Part shown: one piece after another, positions 26,289 to 40,026 of the stretch
Numbering within the stretch: position 1 is the first letter of the stretch
Layout: each line of letters begins with the position of its first letter
DNA from: Deltaproteobacteria bacterium
GTDB taxonomy: Bacteria > Desulfobacterota > Desulfarculia > Adiutricales > Adiutricaceae
Direction of reading: 5' to 3'
DNA: 64,000 bases
Assembly (NCBI GenBank): GCA_031264145.1
Contig: JAISEK010000138.1
Coordinates: 1 to 64,000, forward strand
Made by a program: the position numbers and the translations under genes
Notes under the pieces: model-generated
The model's input: only the letters and a program-made list of their open reading frames with translations
Databases searched by the model: none
Told to the model about the DNA's origin: nothing

Positions 26289-27578
<1,290 letters not shown>

Positions 27579-27925: not shown

Positions 27926-29362
27926 TCAGCCTGGCCTGGCCTCGGCGAAGGAAGGGTCGGCCAGGGCCGAGGCGGCCAGTTCCAGGGCCTCCTGGCTGGT
28001 GAGAATCTGGCCGCTGTCGAAGGCGGCCGTGACAACCTCCATAAGTCGGCCCACGGTCGGCCCGCCGGAGAGGCCCAGCCCGGCCATGAGCTCCCTGGCC
28101 TCCAGGGGAATGACCCCCGGGCCCCTCTGGCCGCCGACAGGCACCAGGAACTCATCCAGCGTCCAGGGGAAACCGTCGGGGCAGGGACTGCGGCCGTTCC
28201 AGTCGGCCCGGGCCAGGGCCCAGAAATGGCCAAGATCGCAGAACGGGGACAGCCTTCGGGCCAATATCTTGAGGTTTAGGGACGTCGGCTCCCTGAAGGA
28301 CATGTCCATGTGGCGCTCGATGATGCGCAGGACGGGCTTCGAGACGGAAAAGGGGGCCATGACGGACTTGAGGAACTTCTGGGCCAGCGAGAGCCCCGCC
28401 GGTCCATGGCCCTTGGTGACCACCCTGCCGTCTGCCCGCCGGAAGGTCACCTTGGGCTTGCCGATGTCGTGGAGGAGGCTGGCCATGGTCAAGAACACCC
28501 GCCCCTCCGAGACCGGGAGGTCCAGCTGGCCCATGGCCTGGACGACCAGGACCGTGTGGTTCCAGGCGTCCCCCTCGGGATGGAACTTCGGAAACTGGGG
28601 CGAGCCGATGAGGGCCTGGAGATCCGGCCAGAAGGCCAGGGCCCCTCCCTCCCTGAGGTACTCGAGGCCAAAGCGGGGCCAGGCCGACAGGGTCCACTTG
28701 CGCCACTCGGGCCACAGGCGCTCGGCCGGGACCCAGCCCAAAAGCGGCCAGTCCCTCATGGTGGCCTTGAGGAGCCCTGGCCCGGGGGTGAAGCCCAGCC
28801 TGGAGACGAAGGCCATGGCCCTGAGAATTCGAACCGGATCGTCGGCCAGGCCCGCTGGGGCGCACAGCTCAAGGCGCCGCGCCTGGAAGTCGTCGGCGGC
28901 CCCCAGGGGATCGCTAAAGGACTCGCCCAGGGGATCGTAGTAGACGGAGTTGACGGTGAAGTCCCGGCAGAAGGCGTCATCGGCGAGGCAAGCCCCGGGG
29001 TCAAAGATGCTCTCCCCCGCCCCGGGCCTCCTGGAAAGTGAGAGGCTGAACTCCGACTCGCCAAGGCGGACCTTGACCAGGGCCGGCTCCTTGGTCTTCC
29101 GGTGGGACAGGACCCGGTGACCTATGATCCAGGAGGGGCCCAGGGGAGAGACCGCCTCCCTGATCTGCCCCAGGTCCAGCCCAAAGCAGACCAGGTCCCT
29201 GTCGCCCAGGCCCGCCTGCCTGGCCCGGCGCGTTTGGCCATGCACGAGCCGGATCATGGTGTCCCTGGGCAGGCCACCCACCACGTAAAGGCGGCCACCC
29301 CGATCGCTAACGCATTGGGCCAGCCTCTTGAACCTAGTGTCGTTGATTTCCTGAATAGTCAT
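27926..29362 (-). CDS. CCA-adding enzyme / poly(A) polymerase family protein with HD domain
   Basis: A 478-residue class II nucleotidyltransferase. The head-domain G motif reads VGGLPRDTMIR where the usual form is GGxVRD, and the metal-binding pair is DRD in GDRDLVCFG. The ERhxxExxx-type block RDFTVNSVYYDP and the DDPVRILRAMAFVSRLGF motif identify the family. An HD phosphohydrolase domain lies in the second half (WNHTVLVVQ, ASLLHDIGKPKV, RHMDMSF), as in many bacterial CCA-adding enzymes. Tail-specificity (CCA versus A) cannot be decided here. The ATG at 29360-29362 has a weak ribosome site. Confidence 0.88.
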   Translation of the reverse strand: MTIQEINDTRFKRLAQCVSDRGGRLYVVGGLPRDTMIRLVHGQTRRARQAGLGDRDLVCFGLDLGQIREAVSPLGPSWIIGHRVLSHRKTKEPALVKVRLGESEFSLSLSRRPGAGESIFDPGACLADDAFCRDFTVNSVYYDPLGESFSDPLGAADDFQARRLELCAPAGLADDPVRILRAMAFVSRLGFTPGPGLLKATMRDWPLLGWVPAERLWPEWRKWTLSAWPRFGLEYLREGGALAFWPDLQALIGSPQFPKFHPEGDAWNHTVLVVQAMGQLDLPVSEGRVFLTMASLLHDIGKPKVTFRRADGRVVTKGHGPAGLSLAQKFLKSVMAPFSVSKPVLRIIERHMDMSFREPTSLNLKILARRLSPFCDLGHFWALARADWNGRSPCPDGFPWTLDEFLVPVGGQRGPGVIPLEARELMAGLGLSGGPTVGRLMEVVTAAFDSGQILTSQEALELAASALADPSFAEARPG

Positions 29363-29782: not shown

Positions 29783-31084
29783 TCAGAGGAGCGCGGCCGT
29801 CCAGAAAGAGGAGGTCATCTTGAGGGCGAAGATTATCCCGACCACCCAGACGGTGGCGGTCAGCTCCCTCCGCCGGCCCGAGGCCACCTTCATCAAGATG
29901 AATACGATCCAGCCCACGGCCAGGCCGTCGGAGATGCGCCAGCTCAGGGCGATGACTATGAGGACGACGAAGGCCGGGAACGACTCGGTGTGGTCGCCGA
30001 AGTCTACCTTGGTCATGGACTGGAGCATCAGGAGGCCTACCATGACCAGGGCCGGGGCCACGGCGGCGAAGGGGACCATCATGAAGAGCGGCGAGATGAA
30101 GAGGGCGAGGAAGAAGCAAACGGCCACGACCAGGGCCGTCAGCCCGGTCCGGCCGCCGGAGGCTACCCCCGCCCCGCTCTCGGCGTAGGTGGTGTTGGGG
30201 GAGAGGCCCAGACAGCTCCCTGCCACCACGCCCAGGGAATCGGCCACGAAGGCCCGGCCCATCTTGGACCGATAGCGTTCACCGTCCGGCCCCATGACCC
30301 CGAAGAGGCCCAGGAAGCCGGCCAGGCCGTCGACCACCTCCATGAACAGGAGGGTCAGGACAACGCTCCAGAACTCGATGGATCCCAGGACCGAAAAATC
30401 GAACTTGAGGGCGATGCCACCGATGGCCGGGGGCAGGCTGACGAACCCGCCGGAGAGGCCCGAGTAGTCGGTGACCCCCAGAGGGATGCCCAGGATGGTG
30501 GTAATTATGATGCCCAGAAGGATGGCGAAACGTACCTTAAGGGCCAAAAGGAGACCCAGGACGATGAGGCCGACAATGACCAGGAGGGCCGGCCCGCCGG
30601 CCAAATCGCCCAGGGAGGGCCCGGAGCCGCCCAAAACTATGACCCCGCCGTTGTGGAGGCCTATGTAGCCGATCATGATGCCGATGCCGGCGCAGACACC
30701 GTGCTGGAGGTTCTTGGGCACCTCCCTTAGGACCTTTTCCCGCAGGGGCGAGACGGACAGGAGCACGAAGAAGGCGCCCGAGACCAGGACGGCGGTCAGG
30801 GCCTGCTGCCAGGAAAAGCCCATCTGGGTCGCCATGACGACGAAGAACTGGTTCAGGCCCATGCCCGGGGCCACGGCGAAGGGCAGGTTGGCCCCGAAGG
30901 CCATTATCAGGGTAGCCACGATGGTGCCGACGGCCGTGGCCGTGAACAGCGCCCCCATGGGTAGGCCGGCCTTGCCCAATATGCCCGGGTTGGCGGCCAG
31001 GACGTAGACCATTGCGAAAAAAGTGGTCAGCCCCGCGCTGACTTCTACCAGAGGAGAGGCATTGTGGGCGTCAAGCTTGAACAT
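29783..31084 (-). CDS. NCS2-family purine permease (AdeQ/GhxP/PbuG-like)
   Basis: A 433-residue inner-membrane transporter with about 12-14 hydrophobic segments. The start GLTTFFAMVYVLAANPGIL and blocks GMGLNQFFVV, GIGIMIGYIGLHNGG, FMEVVDGLAGFLGL and GLSPNTTYAESGAGVASGGRTGL are characteristic of the AzgA-type NCS2 group, whose characterised members carry adenine, guanine or hypoxanthine with protons. The start is ATG 31082-31084 with GGAGAAAGGA upstream. A cobalamin riboswitch lies in its leader (31238-31435). A base imported under B12 control could be a cobamide lower ligand rather than a nucleotide precursor; that is inference. Confidence 0.94.
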   Translation of the reverse strand: MFKLDAHNASPLVEVSAGLTTFFAMVYVLAANPGILGKAGLPMGALFTATAVGTIVATLIMAFGANLPFAVAPGMGLNQFFVVMATQMGFSWQQALTAVLVSGAFFVLLSVSPLREKVLREVPKNLQHGVCAGIGIMIGYIGLHNGGVIVLGGSGPSLGDLAGGPALLVIVGLIVLGLLLALKVRFAILLGIIITTILGIPLGVTDYSGLSGGFVSLPPAIGGIALKFDFSVLGSIEFWSVVLTLLFMEVVDGLAGFLGLFGVMGPDGERYRSKMGRAFVADSLGVVAGSCLGLSPNTTYAESGAGVASGGRTGLTALVVAVCFFLALFISPLFMMVPFAAVAPALVMVGLLMLQSMTKVDFGDHTESFPAFVVLIVIALSWRISDGLAVGWIVFILMKVASGRRRELTATVWVVGIIFALKMTSSFWTAALL

Positions 31085-31237
31085 AGCGTTTCCTTTCTCC
31101 CCAAACCCGGGAGACCGGACGCCGGGCCTCCAGGAAGCCCTTGGACCGTCCGGCTTGAATGGTTAGAAAGGAGGTCTTTGCCATCGACTTCCTGGGTCCT
31201 GGGCCACGGGCGGGGCGCCGCCCCTCAAGGCCCCGGG

Positions 31238-31435
31238 TCCGACCGGTCTTCTGGCTCACGGATCAGCCGACGCGCCGCGGCCTTCCCGGGCCCCCAAGGC
31301 CCAGTGACCGGCCAAAGGGCGAGGCTGGGCCCCTTGGCCAAAAGCGGCGTGCCGTCCCCGTTCACAGCGGCGGGTCCGCCACGGTTTCTACCGTAGTTCC
31401 GGAAGGTCGAACCGCGACTAAACTACTACCTCGCG
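31238..31435 (-). promoter_or_regulatory. Cobalamin (AdoCbl-class) riboswitch
   Basis: On the minus strand the conserved core elements appear in order: GGTTC...CCGGAAC (about 31412-31392), CGGTAGAAACCG (about 31390-31379), GGCGGACCCGCCGCTGTGA (about 31380-31362), then CACTGGGCC and CCCGGGAAGG (about 31304-31281), TGATCCGTGAG, and the B12 box AGCCAGAAGACC (about 31255-31244). These match the cobalamin riboswitch consensus, including the CACTG/GGGAAG receptor. The next gene downstream is the NCS2 permease at 29783-31084. The stretch TCCTTTCT (31165-31172) could pair with the permease Shine-Dalgarno. Confidence 0.9.
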
Positions 31436-31736: not shown

Positions 31737-33380
31737 TCAGCCGCCGATTAAGGCCTGACACTGCCCTCCCAGCGTTACCCCAAGCCCTATTCCGACAAAT
31801 TCCTTCGAATAACCTCGGTAGGGTCTCCAATGTTCCTTAGCGTCTATGGCCTTTAGGGCTTTTTTTGCGATTTTTTCCAGAAGTTTGCCCTGACCGCTAG
31901 ATTTGCTTCCAGCCGAGAATTCCACCTCAATGACCACAAACAACCCTGGAAAAACTATGGCCAAATCTGACGTCCCAACCGTCCCTGGGGCCTCAGGCAG
32001 GAATGTGCGGCCAAATTGGCGGCAGTAGGCATACAGTACCCTGTGGTACCAGGACTCGCTATCCCCATGGTGTGCGGCCGGAAGGGCATCAAAGACCGAT
32101 GAGATTATCTTGGTCAGTCGGTCAGAGTCCCGCTCACGCACAGCACCCATAAAAGCATCCCTTTCCTCCTGCGGGCTGCGGCCCAACTTCCAATACAACT
32201 CGTCGGTAAAGAATTCATAAATGCTATCCTGGACCTCCCAGTTGGGTATCCGCAAGGAAAACAATCTGCCTTCCGAAGGATCGCTGATACTCCGATCCAC
32301 TGTCAGATATCCTGTCTGGAACAGGCCAGGCACAGTTTGGTGACTGCCAAAGCCCGTAAAACCAAGGGTCTTCTGGGAATGATAGTCAAATTTTGTATCA
32401 AGGAGACTAAAAGGATTATCGTTATTCTCGTCAATGAAATCCATAAGAAAAGTTATTGGTGGATATGTTTTAAACCAATAATTTGAAAAATCAGATCTTT
32501 CTAGACATTTCAATATCGAATATGGATTAAGAACCTTGTCCTCCCCACCCCAGCTATAACCACTAAAATATTCTTTAATTTGAGCAAGCAGATCAGACAC
32601 GCTAGCATCATTAACTATGGCACCATTAGTTTTCATTTTCTCCAAGACAATCGGCATATAATTTTTAAAACAATTTTCTAACTCAAATTCAGTAAAACAA
32701 CATATATTATTATAGTCTGGATCAAATGTAATATCATTTAAACTGTTAAGCCCAGCAGATAAGCCAGGAAATCCATAATATGTTGTCCCAGTAACAAATA
32801 TAAAGCGTAGATATTTGTCACAAGATTTTAATTTTGAATAAAAATTTTTTAAAATAGTTAGTAATTTTTGTGGATGTCTAGAATTTTCAATATTATAATT
32901 GATAACTGAATCATAATCATCAATAAGTAATACTATATTAGAATTATATTTTTCTTTTAGAGACTTAAATAGTCTAACAAGCAGCCCTCCAAGAGAAGCA
33001 GCTTCAACATCGAGGCCGTGTAGGAAAGCCGCATGACATATAACGCCCTCGATATCATTCCTCAATTTTTCCGGCGTACCGCTTTCCAAGTTCATATCCA
33101 GGGTCACGACAGGGAATTTCTGGCTGAAATCATAATCCGACCGACCAATCCATAGATCCCTGAAAAGACCCTGAGGAGGCCCGTCAGGATCAGGCGGACC
33201 GCTAAACAGTGATTCAAAGGTGCTTAATAGGAGAGATTTGCCGAAACTACTGGGCCTCGAGAGGAAATAGGCCTTGCCCGTGCTGGCCATCTTGTAGACG
33301 AACCTCGTCTTGTCGACATAAACATAGCCGCCCTCGATAATTTTCTTGAAAGTCTGCATGTCGAACGGAATTTTCTTCAT
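31737..33380 (-). CDS. AAA-ATPase-like / PD-(D/E)XK nuclease protein
   Basis: A full-length (547-residue) paralogue of the truncated gene at the window start. Residues about 10-230 form the AAA-ATPase_like domain with a P-loop-like RPSSFGKS and Walker-B-like IVLLIDDYDS. The C-terminal about 120 residues are the DUF1703 PD-(D/E)XK domain: SDLAIVFP and VVIEVEF carry the acidic active-site pair, although the usual EFK/ELK triad appears as EVE, so catalysis is uncertain. The middle of the gene (about 32400-32960) is much more AT-rich than its ends. Start chosen at ATG 33378-33380 (MKKIPFD); the frame extends 8 codons further. Role unknown. Confidence 0.88.
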   Translation of the reverse strand: MKKIPFDMQTFKKIIEGGYVYVDKTRFVYKMASTGKAYFLSRPSSFGKSLLLSTFESLFSGPPDPDGPPQGLFRDLWIGRSDYDFSQKFPVVTLDMNLESGTPEKLRNDIEGVICHAAFLHGLDVEAASLGGLLVRLFKSLKEKYNSNIVLLIDDYDSVINYNIENSRHPQKLLTILKNFYSKLKSCDKYLRFIFVTGTTYYGFPGLSAGLNSLNDITFDPDYNNICCFTEFELENCFKNYMPIVLEKMKTNGAIVNDASVSDLLAQIKEYFSGYSWGGEDKVLNPYSILKCLERSDFSNYWFKTYPPITFLMDFIDENNDNPFSLLDTKFDYHSQKTLGFTGFGSHQTVPGLFQTGYLTVDRSISDPSEGRLFSLRIPNWEVQDSIYEFFTDELYWKLGRSPQEERDAFMGAVRERDSDRLTKIISSVFDALPAAHHGDSESWYHRVLYAYCRQFGRTFLPEAPGTVGTSDLAIVFPGLFVVIEVEFSAGSKSSGQGKLLEKIAKKALKAIDAKEHWRPYRGYSKEFVGIGLGVTLGGQCQALIGG

Positions 33381-34150
33381 GATTGCTCCCAGCCCGTAAC
33401 CCACGGTCTCAGGCTAAAATGATTCTTACTGGTCACAGGCTGATCGTCGCATAATTTTCTAATATTGGCGACGGACCTCATAGGTTCCTGGCAGGAATGC
33501 TGGCACCTTGACCTTACTGATAAGGCACCGATCAAGGTGAATTCCAGGCTTTTTGAGGAGTCCGTCAAGAGACGCCCCAGTGTTTTGCCATATCTGCACG
33601 TATGGACTATAGCAAAACAATCAACGATGGGCAATGGGCCTTTGTTTGGGCCTTCGGCCTTCGATGTCTTCACCATGGCGCAAGCTACAAGTTTTGGTAA
33701 TGAGCCTAAAGGTCGGATAACCTATACTCAAATTGACAAGGCAACGTGACTTCCATCTTCTTGAAAAACATCCGATCGCAGGCAAATACCTGTCGATGGA
33801 GATGATCTTCTGCGGGGTACCAAGATCGGTGTTGCCATAAAGCCCGTCGTCTATCCCAGATGCGGAACCGGTATGATAAATGAGTTCAATCATGCCGGCA
33901 TGGTCACGGGACGCCGCTATTTTCTTTGGAATTTCGACTTTTTATCGAAACAAAGCATTTTGGCTTGGTTGGCACGGGTATTTTGGAGCCTTTTGGGGTT
34001 TTGGACAAAAACTTGGTGCTCAACACCTTGTCCCGTTTCTTATCCTGGTCATATATGGCCTGCCGCTCAAGAGCTATAGATGCCACCGCTCTTCTGCGTG
34101 CTGTGGACGATACCGGGTTTGAGCTTTCCCGATGCTTTTGCAGGCAGCCA
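33381..34150. other. Low-coding region with possible decayed ORFs
   Basis: No intact gene. On the minus strand 33465-33676 encodes a peptide with GPLPIVDCFA and SLEFTLIGALSV, faintly like the N-terminus of DUF4277/IS1634-type transposases; other frames nearby (33621-33893, 33904-34086) are interrupted. The transposase reading is weak. Overall the region looks like mutated former coding DNA. Confidence 0.3.
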
Positions 34151-35259: not shown

Positions 35260-36351
35260 TTGACAGACCAGATTGACAAAGGGTTACTTTGTTGCGGCGT
35301 TTCCAAGACATTCGGTAACCACGAGGCCTTGCGTGATTTAGACCTTTCCGTTGAAAAAGGCGAGATTTTTACCATTCTTGGACCTTCTGGATGCGGTAAG
35401 ACAACCCTTTTACGTATAATCGCTGGGCTGGAATTGCCAGATTCCGGCCGTATTTTCCTAAATTCCAAAGAAATCACCAGACTCCCCGCCTCTGGAAGGC
35501 CGGTCAATACCGTCTTCCAAAGCTACGCTCTTTTCCCCCACCTAGACGTCTTCTCCAACGTAGCCTTCGGCCTCTTGGCCCGCAAGACCCCCAAGTCCGT
35601 GGTCGAGGCGAAGGTCGGCGACATCCTGTCCCTCATGCGGATGACCGGCCTGGAGAGAAGGCTCCCCCACCAGCTCTCCGGAGGCCAGAAGCAGAGGGTG
35701 GCCCTGGCCCGGGCCTTGGTCAACGAGCCCGAGCTGCTCCTCCTGGACGAGCCGATGAGCGCCCTGGACGCCCACCTTAGGACCCAGGTGCAGGACGAGC
35801 TGAGGGCCCTGCAGAAAAAGCTGGGCACCACCTTCGTCTTGGTCACCCATGACCACAACGAGGCCAAGATGCTCTCCAACCGCCTGGCGGTGATGGACGA
35901 GGGCCGGATAATCCAGTTCGGCTCCACCCAGCAGGTCTTCTCAAAGCCCCGTAACAAATTCGTGGCCGAGTTCCTTGGAGCCACGAACATCATCGACGCC
36001 TCGCTCCTGAGCGGCAACGCCTACGAGACTCCCTTCGGCACCATGGACATCTCCGATAAGCCCAGCTGGGACAAGGGAAAGATGCTCATCTGGCCAGACC
36101 GCATCCAGATCCACGAGGAAGCCAAGGCCGACCAGCACAACTGGTTCAACGGCCTGGTCCTGGACCAGGTCTTCAACGGGCAGGGCCTGGACGTCATGCT
36201 GACCAAGGACTCCGGCGGCGTCTCGCTGGGCAACCCCACCCTTTCCGTGAAGGCCAGGACCCCCAAGAGCATCCAAAGCGGCCAGAAGGTCGGGGTCTAC
36301 TTCCCGCCCGAGCACCTGGTCCCTCTGGACAGGAATTCCCTCAGCCATTGA
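35260..36351 (+). CDS. potA: ABC importer ATPase, PotA-like (spermidine/putrescine family)
   Basis: A 363-residue ATPase energising an importer with the two permeases downstream. Walker A GPSGCGKTTL, Q-loop VFQSYALFPH, signature LSGGQKQRVALARAL, Walker B LLLLDEPMSALD and switch His in VTHDH are intact. A C-terminal TOBE-like regulatory domain occupies about residues 240-363. The likely start is TTG at 35260, because no in-frame ATG precedes the family N-terminus. An 8-codon ATG frame at 35250-35276, with its own GGGAGG site, overlaps this start in another frame. Polyamine specificity is inferred from the subfamily only. Confidence 0.9.
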   Translation: MTDQIDKGLLCCGVSKTFGNHEALRDLDLSVEKGEIFTILGPSGCGKTTLLRIIAGLELPDSGRIFLNSKEITRLPASGRPVNTVFQSYALFPHLDVFSNVAFGLLARKTPKSVVEAKVGDILSLMRMTGLERRLPHQLSGGQKQRVALARALVNEPELLLLDEPMSALDAHLRTQVQDELRALQKKLGTTFVLVTHDHNEAKMLSNRLAVMDEGRIIQFGSTQQVFSKPRNKFVAEFLGATNIIDASLLSGNAYETPFGTMDISDKPSWDKGKMLIWPDRIQIHEEAKADQHNWFNGLVLDQVFNGQGLDVMLTKDSGGVSLGNPTLSVKARTPKSIQSGQKVGVYFPPEHLVPLDRNSLSH

Positions 36352-36472
36352 GCGCCAGTACATACCCATCGTCGGGCCCGGGCTGGCTTGGCTGACCCGG
36401 GCCCGGTCCGTTTGATGAGGCCATCCCCTCCCCGGGCCAGACGGCCCCGGCGTTACCAGGCTGGAGGCGGGC

Positions 36473-37441
36473 ATGGGCAAAAAGACCAAAGGCAAACCCG
36501 GACCAAGGTCCGGGCACGTCGTCTGGCGCGGCGAGCTGACCAGCTCCCTGGCCCTCAGGCTAAGGGCAGTTGGCCTGGCCGGGCCGCCCCTCTTGTGGCT
36601 GACCCTCCTTCTGGCCGTGCCCTGCCTGATGCTGGGTGCCCTGGCCCTGGCCACCAGGGGCCAGTACGGGGAGGTCGTCTTTTCCTTCACCCTGGAAAAC
36701 CTTAAACGCCTGGCCGGCTTCGGCCTCTACGGCTGGAGCCCCAACTTCCTCTACATCATCCTCAGAAGCTTCTGGGTGGCCACGGCCACCACGGTCCTGT
36801 GCGTCCTTCTGGCCTACCCGCTGACCTTCCACGTGGCCACCAGGCCGGGCAGGACCAGGGTCTTCTGGCTCATCCTCATCATCGTGCCCTTTTGGACCAA
36901 CGTGGTCGTGCGGGCCTACGCCTGGCTCCTGATCCTGGGCCCCCAGGCCCCGCCGGCCAGGCTGGCCGCCGCCCTGGGCCTAATCCGGGACGGTGCCGCC
37001 CTCTACCCCGGCCCCCTGGCGGTCTACCTTGGCATGGTCAGCACTTTCCTGCCCTTCATGGCCCTCCCCCTGTACGCCAGCGTAGAGCGGCTTAACTGGG
37101 AAATCCTGGAGGCGGCCAAGGACCTCTACGCCTCAAGGGTACAGATATTCATGCAGGCCATCCTGCCACAGACCAGGCCTGGCTTGTCGGTCGGGGTAAT
37201 CGTGACCTTCGTGCCCTCCATGGCCATGTTCGTGGTGACCGACCTCCTGGGCGGGGCCAAGACCATGCTCATCGGCAACCTCATCCAGCAGCAGTTCGCC
37301 CAGGCCCGCGACTGGCCCTTCGGGGCGGCCCTGTCCCTGGCCCTGATGGCCATGACCCTCCTGTGCCTGGCCCTCCTCAGGCGCCGCAGGCGCCAGAGGC
37401 CCGGCGGCCATGCCGAGGGCGTCCTGTCCAGGCTTGGCTGA
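36473..37441 (+). CDS. potB: ABC importer permease, PotB-like
   Basis: A 322-residue inner-membrane permease with six expected membrane segments and a basic cytosolic N-terminus. The ATPase-contact EAA loop reads EAAKDLYASRVQIFMQAILP followed by TRPG, as in PotB/type I spermidine permeases. The block RSFWVATATTVLCVLLAYPLTFHVA and WTNVVVRAYAW are typical. The ATG at 36473 has GGAGGCGGG upstream. It lies 121 bp after potA and 13 bp before potC. Confidence 0.92.
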   Translation: MGKKTKGKPGPRSGHVVWRGELTSSLALRLRAVGLAGPPLLWLTLLLAVPCLMLGALALATRGQYGEVVFSFTLENLKRLAGFGLYGWSPNFLYIILRSFWVATATTVLCVLLAYPLTFHVATRPGRTRVFWLILIIVPFWTNVVVRAYAWLLILGPQAPPARLAAALGLIRDGAALYPGPLAVYLGMVSTFLPFMALPLYASVERLNWEILEAAKDLYASRVQIFMQAILPQTRPGLSVGVIVTFVPSMAMFVVTDLLGGAKTMLIGNLIQQQFAQARDWPFGAALSLALMAMTLLCLALLRRRRRQRPGGHAEGVLSRLG

Positions 37442-37454
37442 GGGAGGAGGAGCC

Positions 37455-38246
37455 ATGAAAGAGAAAAGGCCCATGGTGGCCATCGTCGCCGTCGCCAGCC
37501 TGGCGCTGATGTACCTCCCGTCGGCGGCCGTGGCCCTCTTTTCCGTCAACAACGCCCGCTACGGACTGGCCTGGCGCGGCTTCACCCTGCAGTGGTATGC
37601 GAGGCTTTTCGGGAACAGGGACATAATCGAGGCGGCCATAAACAGCCTGGTGCTGGCCGTCGTCTCCACCCTGGTCGCCACCATCCTGGGAACGGCCCTG
37701 GCCATCGGCCTCCGCAGGGCCCCCTGGCCGGCGGCCCTCCTCCGGGTCTTCGATCTCCTAATAAACCTGCCGGTGGTCGTCCCGGACATCATCATGGCGG
37801 TGGCCCTGGCCATGGCCTTCAACGTCCTCAGGCTCCTGTCGTCGGTCTTCGAGATGGGCCTATTTACCCTGATCGTCGGCCACGTGACCTTCCAGATTTC
37901 CTTCGTGACCCTGGTCGTCAAAAGCCGCCTGGAGGCCCTGGGCCAGGACACCGACGAGGCGGCCATGGATCTGTACGCCTCCCGCCTCTTCCACTTCCGG
38001 CACGTGACCCTGCCCCTGATCCTCCCCGGGGTCCTGGCCGGGGCCATGCTGGCCTTTACACTCTCGCTGGATGACTTCATCATCAGTTTCTTTACCCACG
38101 GCCCGGAGTCAGTCACCCTACCCATCTACATCTACGCCTCGATAAAGAGGGGCCTCAGCCCTGAGATCCACGCCCTATCCACGCTCATGCTGGTGCTCAC
38201 GACCATTCCCATAATCATCGCCGAGCGTCTGACCAGGAGGTTCTAG
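37455..38246 (+). CDS. potC: ABC importer permease, PotC-like
   Basis: A 263-residue second permease subunit. Segments such as NSLVLAVVSTLVATILGTALAIGL and LPVVVPDIIMAVALAMAF and the EAA loop EAAMDLYASRLFHFRHVTLP then LILPG identify a PotC-type protein. The FTLSLDDFIISFFTHGP block is diagnostic of the polyamine group. The ATG at 37455 follows GGAGGAGGAG. No periplasmic binding protein (potD) follows: the next gene is a convergent UroD-family gene, so the binding protein must be encoded elsewhere or be absent. Confidence 0.92.
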   Translation: MKEKRPMVAIVAVASLALMYLPSAAVALFSVNNARYGLAWRGFTLQWYARLFGNRDIIEAAINSLVLAVVSTLVATILGTALAIGLRRAPWPAALLRVFDLLINLPVVVPDIIMAVALAMAFNVLRLLSSVFEMGLFTLIVGHVTFQISFVTLVVKSRLEALGQDTDEAAMDLYASRLFHFRHVTLPLILPGVLAGAMLAFTLSLDDFIISFFTHGPESVTLPIYIYASIKRGLSPEIHALSTLMLVLTTIPIIIAERLTRRF

Positions 38247-38299: not shown

Positions 38300-39280
38300 T
38301 CACCGCCTGGCGGCGTGGCGGACCCATTCCAGCCGCTCGTAGGGGATGCCCTGGGGAATGGTGCAGTCAGCCCCGATGATGACCCCTTCCCGGCCGGCCT
38401 CCTCCAGGAGGCGCCTGGTGAAGTCCTCTATGGCCCTCCGATCCCCGGTCTGGAGTAGGGAGCCGCTGGTGTTGGGGAAGCCACCCAGGACGGGGCGGCC
38501 CCCGAAAAGCCGCCGGCCCTGGCCCAGACTGACCTCCTCCACGTTGGCGGCCCAGCTGAAGACGTTGGCCGGAAAGTCCCGGTAGACGGCCAGGTTGTTC
38601 CTCACGCCGCCGTAACCGCAGATATGGAGGATGCTGCGGCCCTTGGCCTTGTTCGCGCCCTCCAGGATGTCCAGCTCGCCAGGGGCCAGGTGCTCCAGGT
38701 AAAACCCGTCCCCGAGCCTTCCCTGGTCCGGGTTCTGGACGCTCAGGTAAAGGCCGTCGGCCTGGCCTTCTCGGATGACGGCCTGCGACAGGGCCTTGAG
38801 CCCCTCCCCGATCCGGCTGATGGCCCCCAGGACGGCCCGCCTGTCCCTCCCGAGCCACTCCAGCAGACGTGGCCGGCCGATCATGAAGCGCAGGGTAGTG
38901 GCCGGACTGAAGACGTTATAGAAATAGAAGGTCCCTGGCTTGATGGCCCTGACCTCCTGGACCAGCCTGACCTGATCCCTTATCCAGACGTGGCCCTTGC
39001 CTATGGCCTCCAAGGCACCCAGGTCCCCGATTTCTCTGATGTCCATGGCCCCGTCCGCGAGAGGGTAGGTAAAATAGCCGTCGCTCATTATCTTGACAAG
39101 ATCGGGCCCGAAGCCGGTCAGGTACTCCCGGTGGCCTTGGACGTTGCGCTCCAGGATCGTGTGGTCTGAGAGGCCGTTCCCAGTCTCGGCATCGGCCAGG
39201 AAATGGAACCAGAAGCCCACCGGTACCCTTTCCACGGACTCGCAGTTGAGGACCTTTTCGACCAGTTCCCTGTCAGTCAT
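38300..39280 (-). CDS. UroD-family (MtaA-like) methyltransferase homologue
   Basis: A 326-residue TIM-barrel protein of the uroporphyrinogen decarboxylase (PF01208) superfamily. It starts DRELVEKVLNCESVERVPVGFWFHF and has HICGYGG (the His-x-Cys position used for zinc in MtaA/MtbA-type methyltransferases), ANVFSWAANVEEVSLGQGR and IIGADCTIP near the C-terminus, the second Cys. The retained Cys residues favour corrinoid methyl transfer over porphyrin decarboxylation, by inference. The start at 39278-39280 has GGAGGT; an 18-codon extension is unlikely. It is convergent with potABC and 53 bp away. Confidence 0.82.
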   Translation of the reverse strand: MTDRELVEKVLNCESVERVPVGFWFHFLADAETGNGLSDHTILERNVQGHREYLTGFGPDLVKIMSDGYFTYPLADGAMDIREIGDLGALEAIGKGHVWIRDQVRLVQEVRAIKPGTFYFYNVFSPATTLRFMIGRPRLLEWLGRDRRAVLGAISRIGEGLKALSQAVIREGQADGLYLSVQNPDQGRLGDGFYLEHLAPGELDILEGANKAKGRSILHICGYGGVRNNLAVYRDFPANVFSWAANVEEVSLGQGRRLFGGRPVLGGFPNTSGSLLQTGDRRAIEDFTRRLLEEAGREGVIIGADCTIPQGIPYERLEWVRHAARR

Positions 39281-40026
39281 GATAACCTCCGTTTGGCCGC
39301 CGCCCGGCCCGACAAATATTGCCGAATTTACCACGTCCTGGGGCCAGGGGACAACCTGGCCTTGAGCCGAGGGAGCAAGGGAACAGGCCCTGATAAAGTA
39401 TTACCAGTACATGCTGCGGCTTTTTTATATTCTTTTAGATATTTATCAAAAAATAATATCTTATGAACACAAATATATTATTATTTAAATATTGTTTATA
39501 TATTTTAATAATTTAATTTTTATACCGAGTGTCGTCTTATTTGTCCGCCGAGATAATACGCATAGGCCTCGTTCCATTTCGACTTCCGGGTCGAGTTCGG
39601 CGGTGTATGGCATAATGATTCCCACCACGCTCAACGGCGAACCCCGCAACGTCAGTGTCGTCAGCATGGGCGCAGGAAAGCCGCAAAGACATATGAGGTA
39701 TTATCGCAAGGCAACCGGGAGATACCGTCCGCCGCGATACGGGAGGTGGATTGACGCTTTTGCCAAGAAACTACCAATACAGCCGCGAGAGCTACCGGGC
39801 AGTCAGCGGGAAACGTCCAGGCAGCGACGTTTTGCCAGGCACTTCTTTTCGCACCCGAGCAATGGCCAAAGGCCGTTTGGGCCCGAGAGAGAGAGAGACA
39901 CACACACAGCATGGAGCCATTACCGAAGGAAGCCGCGCCGGCTACACCTATCGCCGCGCTTGGGCTATCGCGGCCAGGAACGAGCCGGATTAGGAGCAAC
40001 GCATCTGGCATTGTTGGGGTGACACA
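39281..40026. other. Gene-free spacer, AT-rich left half, simple repeat at right
   Basis: 39410-39530 is very AT-rich. A GA/CA simple repeat lies at about 39890-39910. Plus and minus frames across 39490-40020 have no recognisable protein features. This is the left edge of a segment with composition unlike the flanks. Confidence 0.4.

Follow-up and report, generated by a model that had tools for sequence, protein, structure and literature searches.

The window, by which we mean the whole 64-kb stretch of DNA analyzed here, carries a cobalamin riboswitch in the leader of a gene for an NCS2 base permease, and the pair is shared across the window's family of termite-gut 'Deltaproteobacteria' (f1 below). 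Control of this permease by cobamide is strongly supported by comparative sequence evidence. The best explanation of the locus, and in our judgment a probable one, is the cobamide-repressed import of a lower-ligand base, the substrate of the permease being presumably a benzimidazole or a purine. The leader riboswitch would sense cobamide and, at ample levels, switch the dedicated NCS2 transporter off. Under cobamide shortage the permease would be made and would bring in a free base, to be joined by CobT and CobS, as lower ligand, to the corrinoid that the cell makes itself. Import would be needed because f1 lost the genes for making the base.

The cobalamin riboswitch and the permease leader

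The features of the locus, all on the minus strand, are as follows.

31224..31426 (-), cobalamin riboswitch aptamer, RF00174, by cmscan; upstream of the orthologous permease in 28 genomes
31174..31188 (-), conserved post-aptamer hairpin GUC-GAUGGCAAA-GAC, usual form GGUY-GAHGGYAAA-RACC
31165..31172 (-), candidate anti-Shine-Dalgarno segment UCCUUUCU (presumed role), directly 3' of the conserved hairpin
31091..31098 (-), Shine-Dalgarno region AGAAAGGA of the permease gene, 6 nt from the ATG at 31084
29783..31084 (-), NCS2 permease of the AzgA/PbuG (AZG) group, 433 aa, riboswitch-controlled subfamily
30314..30343 (-), TM8 substrate motif, codons M248-F257 (MEVVDGLAGF), altered from the usual xDxFDTxGT
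27926-29362 (-), CCA-transferase/HD protein gene, downstream of the permease; not a cobamide gene
26289-27578 (-), purA, downstream of the CCA-transferase/HD gene; not a cobamide gene

When the whole window was searched with cmscan, a single cobalamin riboswitch was detected, at 31224-31426 minus. It matches RF00174 over the full length of the model (positions 1-189) with 55.5 bits (E = 4.6e-11), where the curated gathering threshold is 31.5, and its 3' end lies 140 nt from the permease start codon. In an alignment of 22 leaders, 14 of the 29 predicted aptamer pairs were changed on both sides with pairing retained. A regular-expression scan of the aptamer core, which missed many Rfam-positive leaders, was dropped as a means of detection in favor of cmscan. 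The window element is thus full length, above the gathering score, and conserved in its core like other RF00174 cobalamin riboswitches, from which it is set apart by its target, a base permease of the NCS2 type. A search of the open-access literature turned up no cobalamin riboswitch reported ahead of a nucleobase permease.

These data confirmed the first-pass annotation in its placement of a conserved cobalamin riboswitch in the leader of an NCS2 permease. The covariance search that it had proposed gave the significant score stated above, and no B12 gene lies between the riboswitch and the permease reading frame, as it had claimed. It had also named a cobamide gene on the permease transcript, together with a separate promoter for the permease, as evidence that would speak against its reading. 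Such a gene was looked for at the locus and none was found, as far as can be read from the DNA; the permease, the CCA-transferase/HD gene, and purA are separated by gaps of about 420 and 350 nt.

The hairpin that follows the aptamer has a stem of 3 to 4 pairs and is present in 29 of 30 leaders, with compensatory forms GGTC/GACC, GGTT/AACC, and GGGT/ACCC. In most genera it continues into a GC-rich, T-tailed hairpin. Terminator-like hairpins, defined by at least five T in eight and a dG of -12 kcal/mol or lower, lie ahead of the permease start in 18 of the 29 leaders scored, by raw count. Because the terminator precedes the permease start, the controlled gene is the permease. This terminator is mostly absent from the window and its closest genera. 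A scan of the window yielded 3 terminators versus 3.5 expected, none above chance; we therefore assign no terminator to the window. The full leader of the window did not fold more stably than shuffled versions (z = -1.02). The segment UCCUUUCU is a perfect 8-nt complement of AGAAAGGA, and similar matches occur in several close relatives; this complementarity suggests translational control in the window. In the window's genus, the OFF state would probably be reached via a hidden ribosome-binding site, and in most genera via an intrinsic terminator. That cobamide binding leads to the OFF state would be expected by analogy with the riboswitch family.

Conservation across the termite-gut family

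f1 is probably Adiutricaceae (Desulfarculia), which has been described as a termite-gut family with putative acetogens (PMC9137090). Permease orthologues (at least 56% identity) were found in 34 of 37 f1 genomes, 31 of which have readable DNA upstream of the gene (G005, G030, and G035 were excluded). RF00174 lies directly before the permease in 28 of these 31, so the riboswitch is shared by most orthologues, a point that the first-pass annotation had singled out for checking, and the arrangement spans ten genera. The three exceptions have a permease with no recognized riboswitch: a group II intron fragment lies upstream in G015, the permease of G018 sits directly behind another gene, and the upstream region of G027 looks like a decayed aptamer. 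One further genome, G023, has CobT and lacks the permease. The 37 orthologous permease sequences form one clade with a support of 1.0.

Outside this clade the sensor is a different one. No cobalamin riboswitch was found before paralogues and class homologues at 30-42% identity, nor before any of 17 more distant homologues of Bacillota type (Acholeplasmatales, Clostridia, and others), 8 of which have a purine riboswitch at the equivalent site. These data indicated that the sensor placed before this transporter family differs between lineages. The purine riboswitch (RF00167) of pbuG-type permeases is attached to the same permease family and occupies the same leader position as the cobalamin riboswitch of f1; the two differ in that one senses purine and the other cobamide, and in the taxa that carry them.

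The riboswitch-permease unit is duplicated at L139, L140, L141, and L142 (genus g8) and at L129 (G017), and broken copies are present in some genomes. In some second permease copies the TM3 motif APGMGLN has become APGMGII. In G007, a gene for a TonB-dependent receptor resembling haem/B12 receptors (L152:6881-8959) lies behind the riboswitch-controlled permease on the same strand; with a gap of 760 nt, it is too far away to be relied upon as a cotranscribed cobamide gene.

Supply of the lower-ligand base and substrate of the permease

The corrin-ring gene CbiC was found in 24 of 25 f1 genomes, CobS in all 25, and CobT in 30 of 37, and f1 is thus plausibly equipped for corrin assembly and for the attachment of a base. 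For synthesis of the base, BluB was not found above the cut-off in any of the 40 genomes searched, f1 included, and BzaF was not found in the f1 genomes searched. Members of the ThiC/BzaF superfamily (PF01964) are missing in f1 apart from two genomes: G019 has a single intact copy, placed with ThiC in the tree, and G023 has remnants. Presence of the nucleotide-loop enzymes together with absence of base synthesis is the gene pattern expected of lower-ligand salvagers. All f1 genomes but one are fragmented assemblies, which makes single absences weak. CobT is absent from G019, which retains the riboswitch-permease pair. ThiC itself is missing from nearly all f1 members, so their thiamine pyrimidine must be imported or bypassed.

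In relatives of the same class (families f4 and f5), PF01964 is usually present twice, and the second copy falls into a separate clade. RF00174 lies just upstream of this second copy in 8 of 9 loci, and a second CobT adjoins it in three. Its position and phylogeny suggest that the second copy is BzaF; NCBIfam scored it as ThiC, under the cut-off for BzaB. Since the riboswitch sits on a base-synthesis-type gene in the relatives and on the permease in f1, synthesis appears to have been replaced by a base permease. As in riboswitch-controlled bzaF/bza-type genes for anaerobic benzimidazole synthesis, the supply of the lower-ligand base in f1 would be under feedback from a cobalamin riboswitch, the difference being import instead of synthesis.

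The permease is an NCS2 protein by both profile and fold. It matched PF00860 (Xan_ur_permease) with 124.5 bits at a cut-off of 27, and its nearest solved structures by sequence are the Arabidopsis adenine/guanine permeases AtAZG1 and AtAZG2. A Foldseek search with the AlphaFold model (mean pLDDT of 85.9) likewise placed AZG1/AZG2 at the top, followed by UraA and UapA among others. In AzgA, N131, D339, and E394 serve the substrate and D342 serves translocation (PMC11527162); N78, D252, and E302 of the permease align with N131, D342, and E394, respectively. The place of D339 is taken by E in the window permease and by A, C, or V in some orthologues. Loss of this acid was considered as proof of a new substrate and rejected, since the E. 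coli carriers AdeP (N) and GhxP (A) have no acid there either.

While the PF00860 match, the AZG fold, and N78, D252, and E302 are shared with the AzgA/PbuG/AZG group (AtAZG1, AtAZG2, E. coli AdeP, and GhxP), the permease differs from it in an identity of no more than 30-42% to homologues beyond its orthologues and in having MExxDGLAGF for xDxFDTxGT in TM8, a rebuilt TM10, and a cobalamin instead of a purine riboswitch. The TM8 motif D[TSA]xGT of the characterized members compared is replaced by D[GS]LAGF in the riboswitch clade, where A255 is found in 35 and G256 in 36 of 37 proteins versus G in 70 and T in 68 of 72 others. In TM10, the permease reads SPNTTYAESG and the clade SPNTTY[AG]ESG, versus the usual S[TN]xTT[YF]VES. 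Positions specific to the clade are overrepresented in TM8 (9 of 20; Fisher p = 8e-5). Several of the changes at the site lead to smaller residues (T to G, V/I to A/G); speculatively, this might leave space for a benzimidazole. A distinct subfamily with a rebuilt TM8 motif suggests that the base may be benzimidazole and not adenine or guanine.

Thus, the scavenging of a lower-ligand base, with repression at cobamide sufficiency, as had been proposed in the first-pass annotation, is the best-supported explanation: BluB and BzaF are absent, the corrin pathway, CobS, and usually CobT are kept, the riboswitch-permease pair is family wide, and the riboswitch of the relatives acts on base synthesis. 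The part of that proposal that named adenine, guanine, or hypoxanthine as the base found no support, given the rebuilt TM8 motif and the absence of Apt. Because the class relatives lack Apt as well, its absence is not distinctive; the only f1 genome searched that has Apt is G018, a single case, in which both the permease riboswitch and CobT are absent.

A narrower version, in which the permease would serve specifically to import a lower ligand of benzimidazole type in free form, its TM8/TM10 site having changed from recognizing purine to recognizing benzimidazole once BzaF was lost, is a serious candidate that we place somewhat below an even chance. If true, lower-ligand salvage would be a regulated, transporter-mediated trait. 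Uptake and use of free benzimidazoles have been reported (PMC6461909, PMC6389850), and another anaerobe incorporates exogenous benzimidazoles into its cobamides (PMC6389850). Several points weigh against base import in general. Since all cells contain purine bases, it is not obvious why a purine lower ligand should have to be imported, and free benzimidazoles may pass through membranes unaided. The departures from the family pattern in G015, G018, G019, G023, and G027 also count against it.

Could the permease instead serve general purine salvage under B12 control, importing adenine, guanine, or hypoxanthine for nucleotides? A shortage of B12 would impair methionine synthase and the flow of one-carbon units through folate, and with them purine synthesis, and the permease would be switched on. 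Membership in the AzgA/AZG purine permease group, with the AzgA-equivalent N78, D252, and E302 kept, fits such a role, as does the fact that no second NCS2 protein was found in the window genome. We nevertheless regard it as unlikely, given that this genome has de novo PurF and no Apt in a search that covered Apt, that the substrate motif in TM8 and TM10 is unlike that of known adenine/guanine carriers, that homologues elsewhere are under a purine riboswitch, and that the riboswitch target in the class relatives is a base-synthesis-type gene.

Less probable still, at perhaps the level of a long shot, is the import not of a free base but of some other small molecule connected with B12, for example alpha-ribazole or another cofactor precursor. 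A B12-related riboswitch regulon and a binding-site motif in which TM8 and TM10 have acquired smaller residues would accord with it, whereas a nucleoside such as alpha-ribazole is much larger than a free base, and the nearest solved relatives, AZG1 and AZG2, carry free bases and cytokinins (see also AzgA, PMC11527162).

The import of a free lower-ligand base has a counterpart in alpha-ribazole salvage, in that both would supply a lower-ligand building block to a cell unable to make it; the alpha-ribazole transporter moves an activated nucleoside, unlike the free-base permease proposed here. That transporter is named CblT and, to our knowledge, its family is unrelated to the NCS2 permease. Lower-ligand identity determines which cobamide-dependent enzymes work, and it drives cross-feeding in gut communities. 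An alpha-ribazole transporter is mentioned in PMC9296465, and a named carrier for the free base was not found in the open-access text covered. The riboswitch-permease locus is a specific, testable candidate for such a carrier, and it would account for how a corrinoid-using family finishes its cobamide without a base-synthesis gene. A cobalamin riboswitch joined to an NCS2 gene could serve as a genomic marker for base salvagers, for which gene content does not at present allow the lower ligand to be predicted.

Other riboswitches and neighboring genes

The window genome (4.0 Mb, 198 contigs, 96% complete) contains eight RF00174 elements. That the window element scores lowest of the eight, together with the decayed look of the G027 upstream region, might make the riboswitch a relic, or one acting elsewhere, whose position before the permease has no regulatory meaning; this is very improbable, since the element is conserved over ten f1 genera with pair-preserving changes and is followed by a conserved leader hairpin and terminators ahead of the permease.

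Five of the other seven elements precede a recognizable B12- or TonB-type gene, the targets being two TonB receptors, CbiK with a periplasmic binding protein, ExbB/ExbD, and a DUF2162 transporter near CobN. The last of these is at L003/L121 (contig C47 of the window genome), where the riboswitch lies before the gene for the predicted DUF2162 transporter and a CobN-type chelatase gene is nearby; the DUF2162 protein is a candidate cobalt or corrinoid transporter. A tandem RF00174 pair lies after a lytic transglycosylase gene at C110:8432-9061 minus (L119, L225) of the same genome. No clear target gene was found within roughly 3 kb downstream of this pair, and CobT is located about 4.5 kb from it on the opposite strand.

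Immediately upstream of the riboswitch, the window contains a PF09820 AAA-ATPase-like gene (31737-33404 minus), and a similar gene is present in the same genome at L121:9932-11602. Genes for a PotABC-like ABC transporter (35260-38246 plus) are convergent with a URO-D family gene (38300-39334 minus), which possibly encodes a corrinoid-linked methyltransferase. The PotABC-like/URO-D neighborhood adjoins the permease again in many f1 members.
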